The notes under the pieces: generated by a model | The model's input: the letters and a program-made list of their open reading frames with translations, nothing else | Told to the model about the DNA's origin: nothing | Databases searched by the model: none | In this document: positions 13,907 to 28,364 of the stretch, piece after piece | Layout: each line of letters begins with the position of its first letter | How positions within the stretch are numbered: position 1 is the stretch's first letter | From: Streptomyces sp. NBC_01233 | Lineage (GTDB): Bacteria > Actinomycetota > Actinomycetes > Streptomycetales > Streptomycetaceae | Length of the DNA: 64,000 nucleotides | Direction: 5' to 3' | Assembly (NCBI RefSeq): GCF_035989305.1 | Contig: NZ_CP108514.1 | Location: 930,001 to 994,000 of the forward strand | Position numbers and translations under genes: made by a program

Positions 13907-14256
13907 TCAGCGGTGCAGCAGCCGCATCCAGTCCTCCGGGACCCGGCCGGCCGGACCCGGCACCGGCTGGTCCGCGGGGTGGCCGCCCGGCGGCGTCAGC
14001 TCGGGTCCGGACTCGTACATCTCGTCGCGGCCGTAGTCCCAGAACCACTCTTCGCCCGGTTCGAAGCTCTGCACCAGGGGATGTCCGGTGGACTTCCAGT
14101 GGGCGGTGGCGTGCTGGGCGGGGGATGAGTCGCAGCAGCCGATGTGGCCGCACTGGGCGCAGCGCCGCAGGTGGAACCACCAGCCGCCCAGGGCGTCGCA
14201 GTCGGCGCAGCCGGTGCCGGCGGGCGGGACGCTCGGGTCGATCCCCTTGATGTCGG

Positions 14257-14260
<4 letters not shown>
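13907..14260 (-). CDS. UBP-type zinc finger protein
   Basis: A 117-residue protein built around a ubiquitin-protease-type zinc finger. Visible zinc ligands are GCADCDALGG, HLRRCAQCGHIGCCDSS, and the histidines in AQHATAHWKSTGHPLV. In eukaryotes this fold binds the C-terminal GG of ubiquitin. In actinobacteria its partner is unknown. It ends WMRLLHR. Its ATG overlaps the stop of the histidine kinase (ATGA), so it is the third gene of a coupled operon with the kinase and the REC-thioredoxin reductase-like fusion. Confidence 0.9.
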
Positions 14261-15794
<1,534 letters not shown>

Positions 15795-15798
<4 letters not shown>

Positions 15799-17471
15799 GA
15801 CTGCTCCAGGTACCGGTGGACGAGCATCACGGCCATGGCTCCCTCTCCGACGGCGGACGCGACGCGCTTCGCGGACCGGGCCCGCGCGTCGCCCGCCACG
15901 AACACGCCGGGAATGTTGGTCTCCAGGTGGTAGGGCGGCCGGTCCAGCGGCCACTCGGCAGGCGGCCTGCCGTCCGGCGTGAGGTCCGGCCCGGCCAGGA
16001 TGAAGCCGCGTTCGTCGCGCAGCACCGTGCCGTCCAGCCAGTCGGTCAGCGGGGCGGCGCCGATGAAGACGAACATCCACTGCGCGTCCACGAGTTCCGT
16101 CGCGCCGCTGTCCACGTCCCGCAGCACCAGCTGTTCCAGGTGCCCCTCGCCCTGCGCCGCCTCGACGACGGTCCGGGTGCGCACCGAGATGTTCGGCGCC
16201 TCCTGGATCTGCTGGATCAGGTAGTACGACATGGACGCGGCCAGGGACGCGCCGCGCACCAGCAGCGTCACCGACTTCGCACCGCGCGCCAGGTACATCG
16301 CGGCCTGCCCGGCGGAGTTGGCGCCGCCCACGATGTAGACGTCGTGCCCCTGGCAGGAGGCCGCCTCGGTGAGGGAGGAGCCGTAGTACACCCCGCGGCC
16401 CGTCAGGTCTTCGCAGCCCGGTGCCTGGAGCTGCCGGTACGACACGCCGGTCGCCAGGATGACGCTGTGCGCGGCGACGGACGAGCCGTCGGAGAAGCGG
16501 ACGACGCGCGCCGGGCCGTTGAGCTCCAGCCCGGTGACCTCGCGTGCGGTGAGGATCTCGGCTCCGAACCGGCCGGCCTGGCGGCGGGCGCGTTCCGTGA
16601 GCTGGGCGCCCGAGACGCCGTCGGGGAAGCCGAGGTAGTTCTCGATGCGGGAGCTCTGCCCGGCCTGCCCGCCGGTCGCCGACCGCTCGACCAGTACGGT
16701 CCGCAGTCCCTCGGAGGCTCCGTAGACGGCTGCGCCGAGCCCGGCCGGGCCGCCGCCGATCACGACGAGGTCGTAGAACTCGGCGGTCGGCGTCGTCGCG
16801 AGCCCCACGTGGGCGGCCAGGTCGGGCGCCTCCGGCTCGATCAGCACGGTGCAGTCCGGCGTGATCACCAGGGGGAGCCGCTGTGCGTCGGCCCCGGCCG
16901 CCTCCAGCAGCCGCAGTCCCTCGGGCTCGTCGCAGGAGTACCAGCGGTACGGCACCTGGTTGCGGGCCAGGAACTCGCGCACCTGCGAGGAGCGGGCCGA
17001 CCAGCGGTGTCCGACCACCTTGGTGGCGGGTACCGGCCGGTAGTCGCCGGCGCGCCAGGCGGCGAGCAGGTCGTCCACGACCGGGTAGAGCTTCTCCTCC
17101 GGCGGGTCCCAGGGCTTGAGCAGGTAGTGGTCGAGGTCGACGACGTTGATCGCGTCGATCGCCGCGTTGGTGTCGGCGTACGCGGTCAGCAGCACGCGCC
17201 GGGCGCCCGGGTACACGTTCAGGGCCTGTTCGAGGAACTCGATGCCGTTCATCTGCGGCATGCGGTAGTCGGCCAGGATCACGGCCACCAGGTCACCGCG
17301 CAGCTTCAGCTCGTGCAGTGCCTCCAGCGCGGATTCGCCGGACTCGGCGCGCACGATCCGGTACCCGGCGCCGTAGCGGCGCCGCAGGTCACGGGCGACG
17401 GCACGGGAGACTCCCGGATCGTCGTCCACGGTCAGGATGACGGTCCGCGCTGGGTCGGCGACCTCTGTCAT
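15795..17471 (-). CDS. Receiver domain-thioredoxin reductase-like FAD oxidoreductase fusion
   Basis: A 558-residue three-part protein. Residues 10-135 form a response-regulator receiver with Asp68 (VILADYRMP) and Lys119 (LLKP). Residues 150-225 look like a thioredoxin/glutaredoxin-fold linker. From about 232 a thioredoxin reductase-like module begins with the FAD loop GGGPAGLG and has the second nucleotide loop VGGANSAGQAAMYLARG, ending with GVFVAGDARARSAKRVASAVGEGA. The redox CxxC normally found before the NAD(P) loop is absent; only Cys373 remains there (EAASCQG). So it may oxidise or reduce something other than a thioredoxin. First gene of the operon with the cNMP kinase and zinc finger. 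Confidence 0.93.
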
Positions 17472-17664
17472 ACGTCTCCCACGACGGCCTGGACCGGCGG
17501 CGCGGCGAGCGCCCGCCCCGGCTCCCGCCCATCGTATGTTCGATCGTCCGGGTTCGCTCCGGGACGCCGCGGCGCGTGCCCTCCCGGTGCACGCCGAGTC
17601 GCCGGGGTCACTCGACCGTGTGATGGGTTCGGCTGGCTCGGCGCCGGTGCGGCAGGGTGGGCGG

Positions 17665-18141
17665 ATGCAGCTGCGCCGGGCCCTGCCCCTGACCCTTGCC
17701 GCGCTCGTCACGGCCACCGGATGCGTGACGGTGCGTCCCGCCGGCCTGCCGGACGTGCCGCGGCCGGTGCCCGCGGCGGTCCGTGCGGAACCCCGGCAAC
17801 CGACGCCTCTCGCCCTGCCGTTGGGGCCCCTGCCGGCGGTGTCCGAGCCCGCCCCGGTGGCGCCGGAGCCCGAGCGGGCGCCCGCGCCGGTCCCGGTGCC
17901 GGTACCTGCCTCGGCACCGCAGCAGCCGCACCGGATCGGGCCCGCACGCCCTGCGAAACCGCCGAAGCCGGCGAGGTCCGCCAAGCCCGCCGTCCCGGCC
18001 AAGCCGCGCAAGCGCCCGCCCGCAGCCGCGAAGTCCCGGCCCGCGGCGCAGCGCACGTACGACATGGCCCCCCTGTGCGAGGCGGCCCGGGGAAGGGTCC
18101 CGCCGTCCATCGTGGGCCTGTGCCGCCAGGGGGTCCCTTGA
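17665..18141 (+). CDS. Putative lipoprotein, paralogue of the one at 29508
   Basis: A 158-residue exported protein. MQLRRALPLTLAALVTATGC gives a short signal peptide and a lipobox-like A-T-G-C. A Pro/Ala/Lys-rich region follows, typical of cell-wall spanning linkers, and then a conserved C terminus, LCEAARGRVPPSIVGLC. The start is fixed by the paralogue at 29508, which shares the same first residues, PTPLALPLG in the middle, and LCxAAxGxVPPSxVxLC at the end. No function is known. It is divergent from the REC-FAD operon. Confidence 0.72.
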   Translation: MQLRRALPLTLAALVTATGCVTVRPAGLPDVPRPVPAAVRAEPRQPTPLALPLGPLPAVSEPAPVAPEPERAPAPVPVPVPASAPQQPHRIGPARPAKPPKPARSAKPAVPAKPRKRPPAAAKSRPAAQRTYDMAPLCEAARGRVPPSIVGLCRQGVP

Positions 18142-18265
18142 CGATCAGGCCGGATCATCCGACTGGCCCCGGCCCGGCTGCCGGGCGGCGGCGGGCCGGT
18201 TCGCTTGGATGGGCCGGACGGGCCCGACCGGGGCTCCGTACAGCCCTCCACCCCAGGGAGTCGCC

Positions 18266-18925
18266 ATGGCGAAGATCGCCCTCTTCGGCGCCACCGGCAC
18301 CATCGGAACCCAGGTGCTGCGCGAAGCACTCCGGCGCGGCCACGAGTTCACGGCGGTCGTACGCGATCCCGCGAAACTCGCGGACCCGGGCGGCGGGGCC
18401 ACGGCGGTGGTGCGCGGCGACGTGCTGGACCCGGCGTCCGTGGCCGGGGCGGTGGCCGGGCACGACGTGGTGATCAGCGCCTTCGGTCCCGGCCCCGGCG
18501 ATCCCTCCACCCTCTTGACCGCCGCGAAGTCGCTGATCGGCGGGGTGCGTTCGCTCGGCCCGGATGCGCCCCGGCCGCGGGTGGTCGTCGTCGGCGGGGC
18601 GGGCTCGCTGCGCACCCCCGGCGGCCCGCTGGTCTGGGACCAGGCGGGCATCCCGGCGCCCGTGCTGGCCCTCATGCACGCCCACGGGGACGCCCTGGAC
18701 TTCCTGCGGACGGTGCCCGTGGAGGAGGTCCGCTGGACCTGCCTGAGCCCGGCCGCGCAGATCGCTCCGGGCGAGCGCACGGGCACGTACCGGCTGGGGA
18801 TCGACGACCTGGTCGTCGACGACGAGGGCCTCAGCCGGATCTCCACGGAGGACTACGCCGTCGCCCTGCTCGACGAGATCGAGCTCGACGCGCACGCGGG
18901 CCGGCGGTTCACCCTCGGCTACTGA
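18266..18925 (+). CDS. NAD(P)H-binding SDR-like protein (YwnB/BVR-B type)
   Basis: A 219-residue atypical short-chain dehydrogenase fold. The dinucleotide loop is FGATGTIGTQVLREALRRGHE at residues 6-26. The later landmarks are VVRGDVLDPASVAGAVAGHDVVISA, VVVVGGAGSLR and the C-terminal ISTEDYAVALLDEIE, the pattern of NAD(P)H-binding/NmrA-like proteins. The YxxxK catalytic pair is not obvious, so it may be a redox sensor or a flavin/biliverdin-type reductase. AGGGAG at 18255-18260 supports the start. Confidence 0.88.
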   Translation: MAKIALFGATGTIGTQVLREALRRGHEFTAVVRDPAKLADPGGGATAVVRGDVLDPASVAGAVAGHDVVISAFGPGPGDPSTLLTAAKSLIGGVRSLGPDAPRPRVVVVGGAGSLRTPGGPLVWDQAGIPAPVLALMHAHGDALDFLRTVPVEEVRWTCLSPAAQIAPGERTGTYRLGIDDLVVDDEGLSRISTEDYAVALLDEIELDAHAGRRFTLGY

Positions 18926-19027
18926 GCACCCCGAAGGCCAGGGCTCCCCCGCGGGGTTAATGGGTGGATGCGTCTGCTCCGGATACCTACAGTGACGAGG
19001 CACCACGTCGTCGAGCAGGAGCGGATC

Positions 19028-20836
19028 ATGCGCACCCACTATCCCCGTACGCCGCACCTGCCCTGGTCCCCCGGGGCCTCGGCGGACAACGTCCGGACCG
19101 TCGGGCTGGAGGGGCTGGCGGGGCGCGAGGTGGTGGTGACGGAGAAGCTCGACGGGGAGAACACCACCCTGTACGCGGACGGCCTGCACGCCCGCTCCCT
19201 CGATTCGGCACACCATCCCTCGCGGGCTTGGGTCAAGGGGCTCCAGGGCAGGATCGGCCCGGGGATTCCGGCCGGCCGGCGGGTGTGCGGGGAGAACCTG
19301 TACGCGCGGCACTCGATCCCGTACGAGGATCTGGACGGCTGGTTCTACGGGTTCTCGGTGTGGGACGGGGAGCACTGCCTGGACTGGGACCGGACCGTAC
19401 GGTTCCTGCGCGGCCTCGGGGTGCCCACGCCGCGCGTGCTGTGGCGGGGCACCTTCGACGAACGTGCACTGCGCAAGCTGAAGCTCGACACCGCGCGGGA
19501 GGAGGGGTACGTCGTGCGGACGGCGGCCGGTTTCGCGCGCGAGGACTTCGGGCGGTGCGTGGCCAAGTGGGTGCGGGGCGGGCACGTGCAGACCGGTACG
19601 CACTGGATGTTCGCCGAGGTCGTGCCCAACGGGCTCGGGCCGGCGGCCCCGTTGTGGGCGGTGCGCTCGGGAGCCGAACCGGACGTGGCGGGGCTGACCG
19701 CTGCCGTCGGGGCGGGCACGGCCCGTGCCGCCGGTGTGGATGAGCCCGCCCCTGACGTGGCCGATGACGTGGCCGAAGTCGCCGCGCGGATCGACGGGGC
19801 GGGGCGGACCGGCGAGGACCGGCTGGCCGCAGTGCTGGCCGCCCTGCTGCGGTGCGAGCCGCGCGGCCGGATCGCGGCGCGGCTCGCGGCGGGCCCGGCC
19901 GGGATGGGACTCGCCCGCCGGGTCGGCGACCTGGTGGGGCTGTACCCGTACCTGCAGCGGCCGTTCCCCGACGCGGACCGGCGGGCCGGGCTGGTCCGGA
20001 TGGCCATGGCGGCCGATCTCGGGGTGCTGCACGCGCTCGCCGGGGCGCTGGCCGAGGGGCCGGAGGCGCGGGAGTCCGTGGAGTGGTCCGCGCTGTGGGC
20101 CGACGAGGCGGGGCTGCTCGGCGGCCGGGATCCGCTGGGTGCCTTGCGGGCCGCGCTGCGGGAGCCCTTCGCCGGGCTGGACGCGGACGCGGCCGACCGT
20201 TGCTGGGCGGAGGCCCGGCGGGCGTTCGGGCAGGGGCGGATCGCGGCGGCGCGCCTCGGCTGGGGTCCGGGGGTCAGCTGCGTCGTGGTCGAGGAGGCGG
20301 TGGCGGCGACCTGGCAGTGGCGCGACGGAACGTTTCCTCGGCTGGTGCAGCTGAGCGGACCCTCGGGCAGCGGGAAGAGCACCTTCGCCCGCGGCCTGCC
20401 CGGCGTGGACGCGTACATCAGTCTCGACGACCTGCGCACCGCCCGGGGTTCCCGTGCGGACCAGCGGGCCAACGCGGACGTGCTGGGCAAGGGCCTGGAC
20501 CGCCTCGACGCCGCCCTGGCCCGGGGCGGGACGGTGGTGTGGGACGCCACCTCGCTCACCGACCAGCAGCGCGGCCTGGCCGGCTCGGTCGCGCGGCGCC
20601 GCGACGCGCTGGTCACCCACGCCGTGGTGCTGGTCGACGAGCCGGAGCTGCGGCGCCGCAACGCCGTGCGCCCGCATCCGGTGCCGGAGCAGGTGCTGAC
20701 CTCCCAGCTGCACCGCTTCAGTCCCCCGTACGCCGGTCGGGCGCACCGTACGTGGTACATCGGTGCGGGCGGGGACGTGGAGGACGCGGCGGGCGGCCTG
20801 ACCGACGGCCCGGACACGATCTGCGGGGAGATCTGA
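19028..20836 (+). CDS. RNA ligase-polynucleotide kinase fusion (RNA repair)
   Basis: A 602-residue protein with two enzymatic halves. The N-terminal half is an ATP-dependent RNA ligase: nucleotidyl-accepting Lys40 in [12 protein letters not shown] (motif I KxDG), motif III-like [10 protein letters not shown], motif IV EGYVVR at about 159, and motif V CVAKWVR at about 178. The middle (200-430) is helical. The C-terminal half is a P-loop kinase with Walker [10 protein letters not shown] at about 443-451, followed by [12 protein letters not shown] and [12 protein letters not shown], like bacterial polynucleotide kinases. It would phosphorylate 5'-OH ends and join them. AGGAG lies 6 nt before the ATG. 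Its stop overlaps the next gene's ATG (TGATG). Confidence 0.93.
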
Positions 20837-23760
20837 TGCGTACCAGTGAGCAGCTCTACCACCAGGTCCGCTGGGATCCGCGGTTCGATCCGGCGCGGTT
20901 CGTGCTCGGCCTGCTCCAGCGCGGGGCCGCGCCGAAGCGGGTTCCGCTGCCCTCCTTCGTGCCCGGCGGCGACATCCCCTGGCACCGGGTGCTGTTCGTC
21001 GAGGCGGACGGCGAACTGGTCTGGGACCGGGCCACGGGTGTGGACCGGATCGATGCCACCGCGGCGGGGCGGGTCCGCGATCCGCGCCTGCTGCGGGCCC
21101 CGTTCTTCACCGCGCGGACCCCGTACGCGTGGGACCCGGCGGGCGGTGGCGCCTGGCGGCCCGCGCAGGCCCCGCCCCGCGGTGCGGCCGCGGGTTCCGC
21201 GCCGGTGCGGCTGCTGACCTGGAACACGCTCTGGGACCGGTACGACGCCCCGCGCATCGCCACCGCCCGGCGCAGGCCGTTGCTGCTGGCCGATCTGGCG
21301 GCCGCCGACGCCGATGTCATCGCGTTGCAGGAGGTCGAGCCCGAACTCCTCTCGATGCTGCTGGCGGCGCCGTGGGTGCGGGCCGGGTACGCCCTCGGCA
21401 CGGATCCCGGCGGCCGGGACGTCACCGAGTGCGGACTGCTGGTGCTGAGCCGGCTGCCGGTGCGGGAGGCGGGAATGCACCTGCTCGGCCCGCACAAGGC
21501 GGTCACCGCCGTGACGGTGGACACCGCGGCCGGCCCTCTGGTCGCCGCCGCCACCCACCTGACCAGCGACCACACCGAGAACGGGCATCTTTGGCGGGAC
21601 GCCGAACTGGCCCGGCTCGCGGAGGGCCTGGCCGGCATCGAAGCCGCCGTGGCACTGCTGGGCGACTTCAACGACGGCCGCCACGGGGCCGAGGGGCCCG
21701 CGGCCGCACTCGGCATGCGGGACGCCTGGAGCGAGGTGCACGGGGCGGCGGACGGTACGCCGACCTTCGACCCGGTGGCCAATCCGCTGGCCGCGGTGGG
21801 CTCGATGTCCGGGCGCGCGGCGCGGCTGGACCGGATCCTGCTGGGGGCCACGGGGGCGCGGGTGACACGTGCGGCGCTGCGCGGCGACGTGCCCGCCGAG
21901 GAGGGGCTGTTCATCTCCGACCACTTCGGTGTGGAGGCGACGTTGGAGTTCGGGGCGCCCGGCGGCGGGCCGGCGCGGCTCGACGTACCGGCGACCGCTC
22001 GGACGGCGGTGGCGTGGCTGCCGCCGCGGCTGCCGGAGGCGGTGCGGGAGGTGCGCCGCAAGCACGACCCGCAGGCCGCCCGCTGGCCCGCGCACGTGAA
22101 CCTGCTCTTCGGCTTCGTGCCGGAGTCCTCCTTCGACGAGGCCCTGCCGCTGCTGGCCGAAGTGGCCGCCGGGACGGGGCCCTTCGAGGCACGGCTGGAG
22201 GGCGTGCACAGCTTCGGGCACCGCGAGGACGCCACCGTCTGGCTGGACCCGGCGGCGGCCGGCGACGCGCCGTGGCAGGAGCTTCGGCGCGCCCTGACGG
22301 AGCGGTTCCCGGGCTGCCGGGGGCGCGCCGAGGGGTACACCCCGCACCTGACGCTGGGGCGCAGCCAGGACCCCCAGCGGGCGCTCGCGGAGTTCACGGC
22401 CCGGCTCGGCGGAGGGGTCTGCTCGCGGGTCGGGGAGCTGGCGGTGCTCTCGCGGCGAGGGGACGGACCGATGCGGGTCCGGGCGACGGTGGCTCTGGGG
22501 ACGGGCGAGGTGCGCTGGGAGCCGGAGCCGGAGCCCGGGCACGAGCGCGTCCGCGAGCCCGGCCCGGTGGCGCCGCACGGCCACGCCGGGTCGGTCCTCG
22601 CCCGCGTCCGGGCCGCCTTGGGCGGGGCGCAGGTGCACCTGGCCGGATCCCGCCGGATGGGCTGCGCGCTGCCGGGTGCCGACCTGGATCTGGTGGCGGC
22701 GCTGCCCGGGGCGGCCGGTGTCACCGGAGTACGGGACCGGCTGGCTGCTGCCCTGCCGGAGGCCGGGCCGCTGCGCGAGGTGACCGGGGCGCGGGTGCCG
22801 GGTCTGCGGTTCCGCGTCGGGGCGCTGTCCGTGGACCTGGTGGCGGTGGCCACCGGCGGCCTGGACCCCGCGCACGCGGTGGCACGGCGGGCGGAGCTGG
22901 GTGAGGCGGCCGCGGTCGCGCTGAGCGCGGTGAGCGACGCGGATGGCGTACGGGAACGGGTGGGCGCGGAGCATGCCGCCTTCGCCCGGCTGGCGCGGGA
23001 GGTGAAGGCGTGGGCGCGGGCCCGCGGGTTGGACGCGGCCCCGTTCGGCGGGCTGCCGGGGCTCGCCTGGGCGGTCCTGGCGGCGCGTACGGTCCAGGAG
23101 GCCGGGGCGCTGGCCCCGGACGCCCTGCTGCGGGAGTTCTTCGGCCGGTGGGCCGCCTGGGACTGGCGGGAGCCGGTCGGGCTGTCGCCGTCGGCCGCGG
23201 CCACGGCGGGCGGGCCGGATCCGGTCACGGTGCTGACGCCCTCGGAGCCGGTGCGCAGTTGCACCGCCCAGGTGGGACCGGGCCTGCGGGACCTGCTGGT
23301 CCAGGAGTTGTACCGGGCCTGGGAACTGCTGGAGGCCGGGCCGGACGGCGCCGGCCGGGCCGTGGTGACCCCGCCGCCGCTGCACCGCCGGCACGCGGCC
23401 TGGGCGGTGGTGACCGTACGCACGTCCGACGGGGAGTTCGAGGAGGTCCTGGGCCGGGTGCGGGGGCGGTTGCGGGCGCTGCTCGGCGCCCTGGAGGAGG
23501 CCGGTGTCACGGATGCGCACGCCTGGCCGCGCCCCTTCGAGTCCGGCGCGGGCCTCGCCCGCTACGCGATCGGCCTCGGCTCCGCCCCGCCGGACGCGGC
23601 GGCGTTGGCCGCGCTGGGCGGCCCGTGGCGGGCCGGCCTGCCGGGGGTCGAGGTCACCCGGGCGGCCTGCGGCGAGGTGCCGGACCTGACCTGGCCCGGC
23701 CCGGCCTCGTGCCTGCGGGGGCGCCGTCAGACCTCGATGACGATCTTCCCCGCCGTGTGA
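20836..23760 (+). CDS. Multidomain RNA-end processing protein: MJ1316 domain, EEP, 2H phosphoesterase, poly(A)-polymerase-like nucleotidyltransferase
   Basis: A 974-residue protein. Residues 1-75 match the MJ1316/DUF504 RNA cyclic-end recognition domain ([31 protein letters not shown]). Residues ~125-365 are an EEP-family phosphatase/nuclease ([45 protein letters not shown]). Residues ~405-530 are a 2H (LigT-type) phosphoesterase with HVN at ~420 and HLTLGR at ~500. From ~600 a nucleotidyltransferase has GSRRMGC and the DLDLV acidic pair, followed by a poly(A)-polymerase-like helical region. All predicted activities act on RNA ends. Start codon overlaps the ligase-kinase stop. Its last 34 bp overlap a convergent gene. 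Confidence 0.9.
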
Positions 23761-24677
23761 CCGCCCTGGCTCAGCTCGAAGGCCGCTGCCAGCTCGGCCA
23801 GCGGGAAGGTCTTGGCGACCGGCACCTTCAGCTGTCCGCTGTCGGCGAGCCGGCCCAGTTCGGCAAGGTCGCTGCCGACCGGGCGGACCCAGATCCACTC
23901 GCCGCCCGATCCGAGCACGCTGGGGTCGGCGATGGAGGCGTGCCGGCCGTCGTCGTGCAGCACTTCCCGGGTGACACCGCCGACGCCGCCCACGAAGTCC
24001 GCGACGACGGTGGGCCCGTCGGGCACGAGGGCGCGGACACGGTCGGCGAGGCCGTCTCCGTACTCGACGGGTTCGCCGCCGAGTTCGCGCACCCGGTCGT
24101 GGTTGCGCGGGGAGGCGGTGCCGATGACGCGGGCACCGAGCGCGCGGGCGATCTGCACGCCGAGGGAGCCGACACCGCCCGCGGCGCCGTGGATGAGGAC
24201 CGTGTCGTCCTTGCCGGTGCCGAGGCGGGTGAGCAGCTGGTAGGCGGTGAGCCCGGCCAGCGGGAGCCCGGCGGCCTCGGCCCAGCTCAGTGAGGAGGGC
24301 TTGTGCGCGAGGGCGCGTACGGGCACGGTGACGAACTCGGCGAAGGTGCCGCCGTGCACGTAGTCCTTGCGGGCGTAGGCGATGACCTCGTCGCCCTCGG
24401 CGTACTCGGGGACGTCGATGCCGACCCGCTCGACGGTGCCGGCCACGTCCCAGCCGGGGATCACCGGGTAGACGACGTCCATCAGGGCGTCGAGCCCGCC
24501 CGACATGATCTTCCAGTCGACGGGGTTGACCGCGGCGTACTTCACCCGGACGAGCACCTCGCCGGGGCCGCACTTGGGCACCGGCAGCCGGATCTCGGAG
24601 AGCACCTCCGTCCCGCCGTACGTCTCGTACGCCATCGCCCGCATGGTTTCCTGGCTGCTCCGGCCCGACTGGGACAT
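23727..24677 (-). CDS. NADP-dependent quinone oxidoreductase-like protein (zinc-free MDR family)
   Basis: A 316-residue medium-chain reductase. N-terminal GroES-like part: [44 protein letters not shown]. Rossmann part: [29 protein letters not shown]. The structural and catalytic zinc ligands of true alcohol dehydrogenases are missing, as in quinone reductases and YhdH/QOR proteins. It ends [16 protein letters not shown] 8 nt upstream supports the ATG at 24677; ATG at 24644 is an alternative. It interrupts the RNA-repair island on the opposite strand and has no obvious link to it. Confidence 0.92.
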
Positions 24678-24799
24678 GTACCCGACCTCTCCGTGTGCTG
24701 GTGGACCCGCCCCCGGTCCATCCCACCATGCACGCCGCGCCCACCCCACGATGCGGGGCGAACGCGGCGCGGCGCGTCCCGGGCCGGCGGAGCGGCACG

Positions 24800-24926
24800 G
24801 CCGGTCGGGCATCGCCGTCAGGAGCGGCCGGTCACACCTGGGCGGTCGGGCCGGGCCGGTCCGGCGGGGCCCGTCACCCGGGGCCGGTCCGGGTCCGGTC
24901 GCTTGGAGCCGGTCCGGCGGGTCCGG
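24800..24926. repeat. CCGGTCCGG-rich low-complexity spacer
   Basis: The motif CCGGTCCGGCGGG occurs twice, with related GGCCGGTCCGG and CCGGTCACRC units between. This is the whole gap between the HD gene and the quinone-reductase gene (24678-24926). Several overlapping hairpins are possible, so it may act as a terminator for the leftward HD-ligase pair. Confidence 0.55.
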
Positions 24927-25523
24927 TCACGCGTGCACCGGAAAGGCGGCCTGGAAGTCGAGCCGCCCGTCCGCCCCCTCGGCGATCCGCCCGAGCACCC
25001 CGTCCAGCTCCAAGTACGCCTCCCAGCGCTCGGCGCCGGTCGCCCCGGCGAGGCGGCCCACCACGAGGTCCTCCAGGTCCTGGACCCGCTTGCCCTTCCA
25101 CACCTTGTCCGCGAGGCTGACCAGCAACTCCTCGGTGGTCACCCCGTCTTCGCCCCACGCGGCGTGCGTCGCGGCGAACCGGGCCTGCTGCTCGGTGAAC
25201 CCGTGAGCCAGCAGCAGTTCCCGCCCCGCCGGCTCGTGCTCGGAGCCCGGCCCGCCGAGTTCGGCCGTGTGCACGGTCTTCCCGATGTCGTGGGTGGCCG
25301 CCCCGAAGAGCACCGCCTCCCGGTCGAACGCCAGGCCCGGGCAGTGCCCCGCCAGCCGGTCGGCCAGCTCGTACGCGACGTCGTGCACGAGCCGCAGGTG
25401 TGCGGCCAGCCGGGGCGGGGCGGCCAGCTCGCGCAACAGTGCGGACACGGTGGGCGGAAGGGGCCGCAGCGGCGGATCCCCCGGGGTGTCGAGCGCCCTC
25501 GACAAGGCATCGGTCCGGGACAT
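24927..25523 (-). CDS. HD-domain phosphohydrolase, partner of the adjacent RNA ligase
   Basis: A 198-residue HD-superfamily protein. Metal ligands visible are His47 in LRLVHDVAYELADRL, the His78-Asp79 doublet in ATHDIGKT, a His in HEPAG or THAAWGED, and Asp in SLADKVWKG. HD proteins remove phosphates from nucleotides or nucleic-acid ends. It lies 27 bp downstream of the second RNA ligase, on the same strand, and in Deinococcus the related ligase is co-operonic with an HD-polynucleotide kinase. I infer a role in cleaning RNA 3' ends. A nucleotide or second-messenger substrate is also possible. Confidence 0.85.
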   Translation of the reverse strand: MSRTDALSRALDTPGDPPLRPLPPTVSALLRELAAPPRLAAHLRLVHDVAYELADRLAGHCPGLAFDREAVLFGAATHDIGKTVHTAELGGPGSEHEPAGRELLLAHGFTEQQARFAATHAAWGEDGVTTEELLVSLADKVWKGKRVQDLEDLVVGRLAGATGAERWEAYLELDGVLGRIAEGADGRLDFQAAFPVHA

Positions 25524-25550
25524 CGGATCATCCTAGGAAGGGCTGGACGA

Positions 25551-26627
25551 TCACTCGTACTCGGTGCCGCCCTTGCGGGTCAGGTAGGCCGGGCTGACCG
25601 CCTTGGCGATGGCCCGGCCGCCGACGACCGGACTGTAGCGCTCCGCCGACGGGCGGATCACGACGCCCTCGCGCAGGTGCACGGCCCGCCCGGACACGGT
25701 TTCGCGGCCGCTCGCGAGCTCCAGCACCGTGTCGAGGCCGTACGGGCCCTCGTACAGCCGTGGCACCAGCGGCAGTTCCCCGTCCGTCAGGACGGCGGCC
25801 GGGTCCAGCCAGCGCACCTGCCCGTCGATTTCGGCGGACACGTCGAAGACGGCGTACCCGGGTGGCGTGTCGGCGGTGCGCACGTCGGTCCCGTAGGCCA
25901 GGTCCTGGACGCCCGCGCCGTACACCTCGGCGAAGATCCCGACCCGGGTGGCGCCGAGCCGGGCGGCCAGGGCCGCCGCGACGGCCGGCACGCCGTGGCC
26001 GCGTACGGCCCGCCAGTAGAGGTTGCGCTCGTCCTCCTTGAGCGCCAGCCCCTTCGAGCCGAAGCCCTTGGAGGAGACGATGGACCGCTCCTCCTGGACC
26101 ACGTACGTGAACAGGCAGGCGGTGCCGTGCAGTTTCTCCGTGAGGACGACCTGCTCGCCCGGCTCGAAGATGTGCGGGTAGCGCTGGAGGTTCTCGATGT
26201 CGACCCACGGCATCAGGTCGGCGGCCGCTTCGACGTCGCCGTTCATCGTCGTGGGGATGGGCGGGGACCATTTGGTGATGCCGAGCAGCTCCGCGAAGTC
26301 CGTGCCCTCCTTGGCCGCCTGTACGAGGTCGACGTCGGCGAGCGCGCGCGGCCGGCACACCAGGCCCTGCGAGAGTTCGCCGCGCAGCCGGACCGCCTTG
26401 ACCCGGTCGGCGGAGCCGCCGGCGAGCCGCCCGGTGAGGCCGAGCTCCTCGATCAGTCCGGCGGGCAGCACGGCCTGTTCGGGTATGTAGAGCGCGAACT
26501 CGCCGGTCCGGTAGGCGCCCTTGGCGATCACGGCGCGGTACAGGCCCACTTGGGCCAGCTCCAGCGCGTCGGCGTTCGGGTGCTCGTGGACGGTCAGCTC
26601 TTCGGCGGTGACTCTCAAAGTCGACAT
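25551..26627 (-). CDS. RNA ligase, Rnl2/Deinococcus DraRnl-like
   Basis: A 358-residue ATP-dependent RNA ligase. Residues 1-120 form an N-terminal OB-like domain (LTVHEHPNADALELAQVGLYRAVI). Motif I is TEKLHGTACLF with nucleotidyl-accepting Lys165; the K-x-H-G form is that of Rnl2-type ligases rather than DNA ligases. Then come IFAEVYGAGVQDLAYG (motif III), REGVVIRPSAE (motif IV) and AIAKAVSPAYL (motif V). Such ligases seal 3'-OH/5'-phosphate breaks, often templated. The ATG has a GGAG nearby. It is transcribed with the HD gene downstream and divergently from the SDR gene. Confidence 0.93.
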   Translation of the reverse strand: MSTLRVTAEELTVHEHPNADALELAQVGLYRAVIAKGAYRTGEFALYIPEQAVLPAGLIEELGLTGRLAGGSADRVKAVRLRGELSQGLVCRPRALADVDLVQAAKEGTDFAELLGITKWSPPIPTTMNGDVEAAADLMPWVDIENLQRYPHIFEPGEQVVLTEKLHGTACLFTYVVQEERSIVSSKGFGSKGLALKEDERNLYWRAVRGHGVPAVAAALAARLGATRVGIFAEVYGAGVQDLAYGTDVRTADTPPGYAVFDVSAEIDGQVRWLDPAAVLTDGELPLVPRLYEGPYGLDTVLELASGRETVSGRAVHLREGVVIRPSAERYSPVVGGRAIAKAVSPAYLTRKGGTEYE

Positions 26628-26713
26628 GGAGGGCTCCTGCAGTCGTCAGGGACACGGACGACGTGCCGGTCCTGCGGCGGCGCGTCGGTGACGATCACTC
26701 TCCGGTCAGCATT

Positions 26714-26730
26714 TTTGCTGGTCCAGCGAA
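26714..26730. promoter_or_regulatory. Dyad in the RNA ligase/SDR divergent promoter region
   Basis: TTTGCTGG (26714-26721), T, CCAGCGAA (26723-26730), 7 of 8 pairs. It sits in an AT-rich pocket (26710-26745) of an otherwise GC-rich 206-bp divergent region, so it is a candidate operator for one or both genes. Confidence 0.4.
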
Positions 26731-26762
26731 TATCACGGTGTTAGCCTGCCGCACCGCGCGCT

Positions 26763-26820
26763 CTGTTCCGACACCCGCTGTTCCGACACCCGCTGTTCCG
26801 ACATCCCTGTTCCACCGTCC
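26763..26820. repeat. 15-bp tandem repeat in the SDR gene leader
   Basis: CTGTTCCGACACCCG occurs at 26763-26777 and 26778-26792, then CTGTTCCGACATCC (26793-26806) and a divergent fourth copy, CTGTTCCACCGTCC (26807-26820). The array ends 2 bp before the AGGAGG ribosome site. Confidence 0.95.
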
Positions 26821-26833
26821 GCAGGAGGCTCCC

Positions 26834-27580
26834 GTGGCACGACGCCGTCCGGTCACCGTCGTCACCGGCGGCAGCAGGGGCGTCGGTGCGGCGACCGCTC
26901 TGCGGCTGGCCGCCGACGGGCACGACCTGGCACTGGGATACGCCCGCGACGAGGCGGCCGCCGAGGCCGTCGCCGAGCGCGTACGGGCCACCGGGGCCCG
27001 CTGTGTGACCGTACGCGGCGACACCTCCGAGGACTGCGCCGTCGAGCGGCTCTTCGACATCGCCGGCGCCGGACTCGGCACGCCGACGGGCCTGGTCAAC
27101 AACGCCGGGGTGACCGGCCCGCTGGGCCGGCTCGCCGACGCCCGGACCGAGGACCTGCGGCGGGTGGTCGAGGTGAACCTCCTCGGGTACCTGCTGTGCT
27201 GCCGCCGGGCCGCCCGGGACATGGCGGAGTCGGGCGGCGGGGCGATCGTGAACGTCTCCTCGGCGGCCGCCACCCTCGGCAGCCCCGGGGACTACGTGCA
27301 CTACGCGGCGACCAAGGCGGCCACCGACGCGCTGACCGTGGGCCTCGCCAAGGAACTCGGCCCGGACGGGATCCGGGTCAACGCCGTGGCGCCCGGCATC
27401 ATCGAGACCGGCATGCACGCGGCGATGGGTGATCCCGACCGCCCGGCGCGGGCGGCGGCCGGGATCCCGCTCGGGCGGCCCGGCCGGCCCGAGGAGATCG
27501 CCGGGGCCATCGCCTGGCTGCTGTCCCCGGAGGCCTCGTACACGACGGGAACCGTGCTGCGGGTCTCCGGCGGCCGCTGA
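26834..27580 (+). CDS. Short-chain dehydrogenase/reductase (FabG-like)
   Basis: A 248-residue classical SDR. The cofactor loop is TGGSRGVGAATALRLAADGHD (TGxxxGxG form). NNAGVTG follows, then the catalytic serine in VNVSSAAATLGS and the Tyr-x-x-x-Lys pair in YAATKAATDAL. The C terminus, ASYTTGTVLRVSGGR, is typical of FabG-type reductases. AGGAGG at 26823-26828 is an ideal ribosome site for the GTG start. It sits next to an RNA ligase promoter, with no pathway neighbours to suggest a substrate. Confidence 0.95.
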   Translation: MARRRPVTVVTGGSRGVGAATALRLAADGHDLALGYARDEAAAEAVAERVRATGARCVTVRGDTSEDCAVERLFDIAGAGLGTPTGLVNNAGVTGPLGRLADARTEDLRRVVEVNLLGYLLCCRRAARDMAESGGGAIVNVSSAAATLGSPGDYVHYAATKAATDALTVGLAKELGPDGIRVNAVAPGIIETGMHAAMGDPDRPARAAAGIPLGRPGRPEEIAGAIAWLLSPEASYTTGTVLRVSGGR

Positions 27581-27590
27581 TCCCCCGGAG

Positions 27591-27621
27591 GCCGCCGGAG
27601 GCCCGGCAGGGGCCCGGCGGC
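27591..27621. terminator. Bidirectional hairpin between SDR and peptidoglycan-binding genes
   Basis: Two stacked stems, 27591-27597 with 27615-27621 and 27600-27604 with 27610-27614, lie between convergent stop codons. Confidence 0.65.
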
Positions 27622-27623
27622 GG

Positions 27624-28364
27624 CTAGCTCATCGCCGCCTGTGTGGCGGGGCCGTAGACGCCCTGCGGGTCTCCCTTGACGGACCGGTCGCGCTGGAGCT
27701 GGCTGACACCGCGCTTGGTCTGGCCGTCGTAGACGCCGGTGACGGAGACGTACGTGAACCCCTGCCCGTAGAGCATCTCCTGCAGGGCGCTGACCTCCGG
27801 CCCCTTGTCCCCCATCCGCAGGGTCACGTAGCCGGCCGACGGTCGCGGCGGCGACGCGCTCGACGAGGGATCCGCGTCCTCGCCCGCGGTCGTGGGAGGT
27901 TCCGTCGTCGGGGCGGCCGAGGGCGCCCCGGACCGTGCGGACGCGGTCGTCCGGGGTTCCCCGGTGACGTCGGCGTCCGGGCTGCCTGCCGGGAGCGCCG
28001 GCAGGGACAGCTCGGGCGGCGGGCCGGCCCGGGGCGGTTCCGGCTCGGGCCCGCTCAGCAGGAGCACCAGGGCGCCGACCACGCCGAGCGCGAGCAGGCT
28101 GCCCACGGCCAGCGGAAGCCGGCTGCGGCTCCCGGAGGCCGCGGCATCGCGAACGGCGTCGCGGGCATCGGCGCGCGCCGGGGCGGGGAGTGCGTCGGGG
28201 CCATCGGCCTGTGGGCCGCGCGCCGGTCCGGGGAAGGCGAGGGGTCCGGTCTGCGGCCAGGCGGACGCCGTCGACAGCGGCGGTCGGCCCGAGGAGGCGA
28301 CGTACGGGCGTACGAGCAGGTGGTCGTCGGGGACGAGCCCGCTCTCATCAGGGTGCTGGGACAT
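27624..28364 (-). CDS. Membrane-anchored peptidoglycan-binding domain protein
   Basis: A 246-residue protein. The cytoplasmic N-terminal ~75 residues (MSQHPDESGLVPDDHLLVRPYV) are followed by one membrane helix (LPLAVGSLLALGVVGALVLLLSG) at about 80-102. A Pro/Ser/Thr-rich linker comes next, then a C-terminal peptidoglycan-binding (PG_binding_1) repeat: VTLRMGDKGPEVSALQEMLYGQGF, VTGVYDGQTKRGVSQLQRDR, VYGPATQAAMS. It would attach to the cell wall from outside the membrane. ATG at 28364 is the first in-frame one with a sensible N terminus. Confidence 0.85.
   Translation of the reverse strand: MSQHPDESGLVPDDHLLVRPYVASSGRPPLSTASAWPQTGPLAFPGPARGPQADGPDALPAPARADARDAVRDAAASGSRSRLPLAVGSLLALGVVGALVLLLSGPEPEPPRAGPPPELSLPALPAGSPDADVTGEPRTTASARSGAPSAAPTTEPPTTAGEDADPSSSASPPRPSAGYVTLRMGDKGPEVSALQEMLYGQGFTYVSVTGVYDGQTKRGVSQLQRDRSVKGDPQGVYGPATQAAMS

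Follow-up and report, generated by a model that had tools for sequence, protein, structure and literature searches.

Do the genes in a 64,000-nucleotide stretch of the Streptomyces sp. NBC_01233 genome (contig NZ_CP108514.1, positions 930,001 to 994,000; the window throughout) encode an RNA-repair system, and which of them belong to it? Two gene pairs, each with an RNA ligase, lie between positions 19,028 and 26,627, and an earlier reading made from the DNA letters (the sequence-only reading) had joined them into one island. Our analysis demonstrates that the first pair, a predicted ligase-kinase (LigKin) followed by a protein of four domains (FOUR), is a real unit and a tightly coupled operon, to which we assign, judging from sequence, a probability of roughly 60% of being a two-protein RNA end-healing-and-sealing system. 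It would be a compact and testable unit for bacterial RNA repair, in which two proteins supply candidates for every step; they comprise the following features:

19028-20836, plus strand: LigKin, 602 amino acids (aa), a predicted ATP-dependent RNA ligase fused to a polynucleotide kinase
19124-19573, plus strand: LigKin ligase domain (PF09414), motif I KLDGEN
20342-20728, plus strand: LigKin polynucleotide-kinase domain (AAA_33), P-loop GPSGSGKS
20836-23760, plus strand: FOUR, 974 aa, the MJ1316-EEP-2H-NTase protein
20836-21030, plus strand: FOUR MJ1316 domain, predicted to read cyclic 3' ends of RNA
21214-21924, plus strand: FOUR EEP domain (endonuclease/exonuclease/phosphatase fold), with conserved N130, E166, H241, D277, N279, D362 and H363
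22021-22464, plus strand: FOUR 2H phosphoesterase domain, with His420 and His504
22612-23547, plus strand: FOUR poly(A)-polymerase-like nucleotidyltransferase (NTase), with conserved G604, S605, D616, D618 and D667

The four genes of the two pairs and every domain named by the sequence-only reading were found where it had placed them, all profile scores exceeded the curated cut-offs, and the profile searches matched the expected families for MJ1316, EEP, 2H, the nucleotidyltransferase and both ligases. LigKin scored 111.3 against a cut-off of 27 for RNA_ligase and 74.1 against 27 for AAA_33, with K40-L-D-G as ligase motif I and GPSGSGKS as P-loop. The scores of FOUR were 64.6 against 26.3 (MJ1316, PF04457) and 60.3 against 24.5 (Exo_endo_phos), 118 against 27 (2_5_RNA_ligase2) and 39.5 against 27.1 (PAP_central, PF04928). 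The open reading frames (ORFs) also bear out the one-base overlap between the LigKin stop codon and the FOUR start codon, as well as the 27-bp gap between the minus-strand genes of the second pair (an HD gene and the second ligase). Candidates for 5' phosphorylation, 3'-end processing and ligation, plus nucleotide addition, are all present.

Active-site-type residues, which we take to be catalytic by analogy with the families (and, for the EEP positions, with the fold), were invariant or nearly so in alignments of LigKin (34 rows) and FOUR (36 rows). The LigKin C-terminus has the polynucleotide kinase fold with a P-loop, and its helical middle (about residues 204-430) matched no Pfam family; against the bacterial Pnkp model TIGR04075 the protein reached 33 bits versus a cut-off of 750, with the match confined to residues 439-561. 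In FOUR, the NTase contains the PAP central domain and intact G-S...D-x-D...D residues and matched poly(A) polymerase gamma with an E-value of 2e-18, and all 134 loci that were classified as full with LigKin (from two overlapping locus sets) had the seven tested EEP positions intact. The EEP part on its own gave no useful result in a sequence search.

Two unusual LigKin copies were observed. Among 150 LigKin proteins compared at the tested positions (gapped positions being left out of the count), only L142 (genome G340) departs, having lost kinase P-loop residues. In genome G012 LigKin is split over two places 2.8 Mb apart, one (L122) with the kinase half and FOUR and the other (L123) with the ligase half, as if a rearrangement or an assembly join fell within the gene.

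How conserved is the operon? Of 80 actinobacterial loci selected from 242 confirmed FOUR relatives, 78 have LigKin directly upstream of FOUR, the gap between the genes ranging from -14 to +50 nt and some copies being cut by contig ends; the two exceptions (L041 and L084) have other ORFs upstream. A third conserved partner was sought by clustering ORFs within 7 kb in these loci and rejected, as the 22 clusters listed included two clade-local neighbourhoods (a dehydrogenase and the S10 operon) and some synteny among close relatives. MJ1316 was detected at 112 places in 108 of the 392 Streptomyces genomes (28 of 101 in an earlier sample). A sample of 246 genomes from across the phylum had it in 2. 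The full four-domain form also occurs in other actinobacterial families, and a distant FOUR (L085; 28.6% identity over 89% of the query) was found on the Calothrix brevissima plasmid AP018209.1. This plasmid is conjugative and has no annotated ligase within 9 kb of the FOUR relative. Phage carriage of FOUR was rejected, since no relative was found in phage records and none was confirmed in viral contigs.

A natural series of domain deletions, which is new in the present work, links parts of FOUR to LigKin. The series consists of the 112 MJ1316 places, with the flanks of 111 read besides the window; L122 was counted as full, and L136 and L137 were assigned manually to the 2H-less class, their EEP and NTase being just 7 residues apart. 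LigKin adjoins 72 places (window included), of which 56 are full, 13 lack 2H, 2 are cut by contig ends and 1 (L122) lies beside the kinase half only. It is absent at 39 places (36 MJ1316-2H genes, one MJ1316 fragment, L125 and L126), and the last of the 112 is at a contig edge. Both EEP and NTase are gone in 37 of these 39 LigKin-less places and the other two are damaged: L125 is a full form with NTase changes D618N and D667G, and L126 is a truncated MJ1316-EEP with EEP changes N130D, E166D and H241L. Among the 71 fetched LigKin places, all 69 readable rows had the tested EEP residues intact, and NTase residues were likewise intact in 69 of 69, two rows being unreadable for each. The 80-locus set overlaps the 392-genome sample (L084 and L125 look alike), and the counts are kept separate.

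As EEP and NTase are retained almost exclusively where LigKin is present, they probably serve ligation; both domains seem to serve the ligase-kinase, and MJ1316-2H seems able to live alone. The 2H domain is dispensable for ligation, having been cut from 13 LigKin-linked places. The natural deletions thus predict which domains are needed together (EEP, NTase and ligase-kinase) and which is separable (2H). No PF09414 match of LigKin strength (at least 110 bits) was present in the six MJ1316-2H genomes of the 101-genome sample, nor in G058 and G085. Three genomes (G368, G465 and G566) have both a LigKin-linked four-domain gene and an MJ1316-2H gene, that of G465 being the interrupted four-domain gene L188. 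A tree from MJ1316 and 2H columns implied three changes between the full and MJ1316-2H forms, three of them forced by supported branches, and a tree without the 2H columns implied three changes for 2H, two of them forced; both trees are quick searches with midpoint roots. Flank clustering of 36 MJ1316-2H loci (mostly 2-3 kb flanks) gave no partner gene, its top clusters being that gene itself and overlapping frames, and a conserved partner was rejected. In addition, G546 has two equal-scoring MJ1316-2H genes (L232 and L233), about 94 kb from the two chromosome ends and probably in terminal inverted repeats.

By what mechanism might the two proteins act? What the sequences show directly is the operon with its domains, active-site-type residues that are intact, and an EEP and NTase that depend on LigKin in evolution. 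MJ1316 would recognise an RNA 3' end with a 2',3'-cyclic phosphate, in line with its description in an excerpt of PMC6514570, and EEP, aided by the dispensable 2H, would convert that end to a plain hydroxyl. The analogy is with the EEP protein ANGEL2, which, according to an excerpt of PMC9525292, hydrolyses 2'- and 2',3'-cyclic phosphates in vitro and, in mitochondria, is required as a phosphatase before polyadenylation. The poly(A)-polymerase-like domain may optionally add one or more nucleotides, e.g., ones lost at the break, after which the kinase half of LigKin would phosphorylate the 5'-OH and the ligase half would seal with ATP, as family membership suggests. Because the same genome has a KptA-family gene elsewhere and the KptA enzyme removes RNA 2'-phosphates, sealing over a 2'-phosphate is also possible. 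More tentatively, and at somewhat less than even odds, FOUR may be a bacterial one-chain machine that reads, heals and extends RNA ends, with EEP as a 2',3'-cyclic and 2'-phosphatase (the counterpart of ANGEL2) that feeds the NTase and the ligase-kinase; without the latter, the protein would shrink to MJ1316-2H with a separate job on cyclic-phosphate RNA. If EEP is indeed the 3'-end healer, it would be another enzyme type than the HAD phosphatases of phage repair in the part of PMC7824862 consulted.

Several observations weigh against this healing-and-sealing system. In structural comparison EEP was nearest to TDP2, and CCR4/ANGEL structures were not on top, so EEP may have exonuclease activity or other ends as its target. 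An alternative is trimming and rebuilding, in which EEP, being no phosphatase, removes a blocked terminal nucleotide as a 3' exonuclease and the NTase rewrites it before sealing; we consider this rather unlikely, because by itself it leaves MJ1316 and 2H, with their predicted role on cyclic-phosphate ends, unexplained, and a poly(A)-polymerase-like enzyme, which works without a template, could not restore a specific base. The link between EEP and LigKin is imperfect, as L125, L041 and L084 keep intact tested EEP residues without LigKin and only their NTase is damaged. Further points against healing and sealing by LigKin-FOUR are the degenerate kinase P-loop of L142, the split LigKin gene of G012, and L188, which is apparently interrupted inside 2H. 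In 12 of the 13 2H-deleted genomes, which were checked, at least two other 2H-family places are present in each, so the 2H work could be done in trans. We also infer that the changes were losses and not gains, the full form being taken as ancestral because it also occurs in other actinobacterial families and a cyanobacterium. Finally, no substrate, inducer or defence context was found.

A link of such systems to ribotoxins and phage is an idea from the literature. Defence surroundings were rejected here, as no defence family was found among eight scanned window stretches, two of which matched nothing and six of which matched histidine-kinase-type ATPase, redox, SDR, peptidoglycan-binding, MerR and transporter families (the transporter under its cut-off). 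No PADLOC model matched FOUR or the second ligase at 0.01, and only marginal matches were obtained for LigKin and the HD protein. The operon might instead be a translation accessory that tails or joins RNA in normal maturation. The lack of a defence family among the examined neighbours and of a well-fitting PADLOC model agrees with such a role, as does the finding that rpsJ and the S10 ribosomal-protein operon lie 0.5-5 kb away, in divergent orientation to LigKin-FOUR, at 15 of the 80 loci (L025, L034, L042, L044, L048, L050, L051, L053, L054, L062, L067, L075, L081, L082 and L083). However, these loci fall in one clade of 18, whose remaining three members sit at contig starts, so that one relocation into a core translation locus explains them, and the patchy distribution of MJ1316 (108 of 392 Streptomyces genomes, 2 of 246 across the phylum) also makes a maturation role improbable. 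A tRNA or structured RNA at the locus was rejected as well: the window has no tRNA, tRNA calls were made in 4 of 60 loci scanned, and no Rfam match reached its gathering score in 17500-28000.

How does LigKin-FOUR compare with known systems? Burroughs and Aravind (2016) reportedly described MJ1316-containing RNA-repair systems in which, as here, ligase, kinase, NTase, end-processing and MJ1316 occur in one neighbourhood; among the matches listed in a literature search, which did not extend to that review, no description of the LigKin-FOUR operon was recognised. The fungal and plant tRNA ligase Trl1 has a ligase-kinase-CPD (2H) layout on one chain, and Trl1-type ligases need a 2'-phosphate at the 3' end. 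LigKin shares with it the order of ligase and then kinase on one chain, with a 2H-type enzyme supplied by its partner FOUR, but 2H is here on the second protein and dispensable, and EEP, MJ1316 and NTase are added; a Foldseek match to 9r3w had an E-value of 3e-4, but a root-mean-square deviation of 16.6 over the whole chain. Metazoan LENG9 consists of MJ1316 plus 2H, the same two domains as the reduced MJ1316-2H proteins (e.g., L131), although the latter are bacterial and form three groups in the tree, placed between four-domain forms. Compared with the bacterial repair complexes Pnkp/Hen1 and Pnkp1-Rnl-Hen1, as portrayed in an excerpt of PMC4411300, the methyltransferase and the Pnkp phosphatase domain are unmatched in LigKin and FOUR. 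The ligase part of LigKin is 39-52% identical to jumbo-phage RNA ligases (20 of 30 records listed), and a description of ligase, kinase, 2H, phosphatase and NTase in jumbo phages follows the same logic (PMC7824862, in part). However, ORF260 of Xanthomonas phage XacN1 is the ligase part alone, the phage collection has no FOUR relative, and no place in it covers 80% of LigKin. RtcB is absent from the locus, the only match in the genome being at C1:5352223, 4.4 Mb away.

Does the second gene pair belong to the same system? The remaining features are:

about 23727-24812, minus strand: zinc-type alcohol dehydrogenase / quinone reductase, a neighbour outside the repair unit
24927-25523, minus strand: HD-domain protein (HD score 34.2 against a cut-off of 22), an accessory at best, which adjoins the DRB0094 ligase in no more than some close relatives
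25551-26627, minus strand: second RNA ligase, DRB0094 family (TIGR02306), motif I KLHG

The dehydrogenase gene separates the two pairs and overlaps the 3' end of FOUR. The second ligase, which the sequence-only reading had called Rnl2/Deinococcus type with a KxHG motif, has K-L-H-G and scored 434 against 151 for TIGR02306 and 66.8 against 27 for RNA_ligase (PF09414). As both ligases match PF09414 and both have the motif-I lysine, the claim that they are chemically distinct is unsupported. TIGR02306 was over its cut-off in 157 of 392 Streptomyces genomes (163 with a match, the six below being inferred from E-values). The DRB0094 ligase was present in 48 of 73 LigKin genomes (one at a contig edge) versus 109 of 319 others (Fisher p 1e-6, phylogeny not controlled), and in 25 of 35 MJ1316-2H genomes (p 1e-4, likewise not controlled). 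Such an excess, together with linkage that persists across spacings of 4-24 kb within one clade, would suit a double island whose two ligase pairs act together. However, in the 48 genomes with both ligases, the genes share a contig in 36 and lie on different contigs in 12 (distance unmeasurable), and of the former 20 have them within 30 kb and 16 about 1.4 Mb or more apart. At the level of whole genomes the two pairs do co-occur, the absence of which would have spoken against the island. Closeness is found only in or beside one clade: a supported clade of 22 rows (the window among them) contains 18 of the 20, G547 forms the next branch, and G465, whose sequence was too short to be placed, shares 95% identity with L180 of that clade. 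The DRB0094 ligase neighbours the operon in 11 of the 80 loci, which together with the window fall in a 23-row clade.

The neighbourhoods of the ligase itself point the same way. A MerR regulator is its neighbour in 21 of 30 loci (L104 included) and is missing beside the window copy, suggesting that a place beside LigKin is not usual for this ligase. HD lies beside it in 2 of the 11 operon-linked loci and in 3 of the 30 with 1.5-kb flanks, the window's own included, so that the HD-ligase pair is no conserved unit. The double island as a general unit was rejected on these distances and neighbourhoods, cooperation of both pairs in one system is highly improbable, and we regard the DRB0094 ligase as a gene of its own, close to the operon in or beside a single Streptomyces clade.

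Two minor observations concern other genes. The genome has a third RNA_ligase-family match in two reading pieces (L003/L004; C1:267976-268576, minus strand), and many Streptomyces have similarly weak PF09414 matches within open frames about 500-650 aa long. In the window at 13907-18329 (minus strand), a cNMP-binding, histidine-kinase-type protein adjoins a fusion of response regulator and pyridine-nucleotide reductase.
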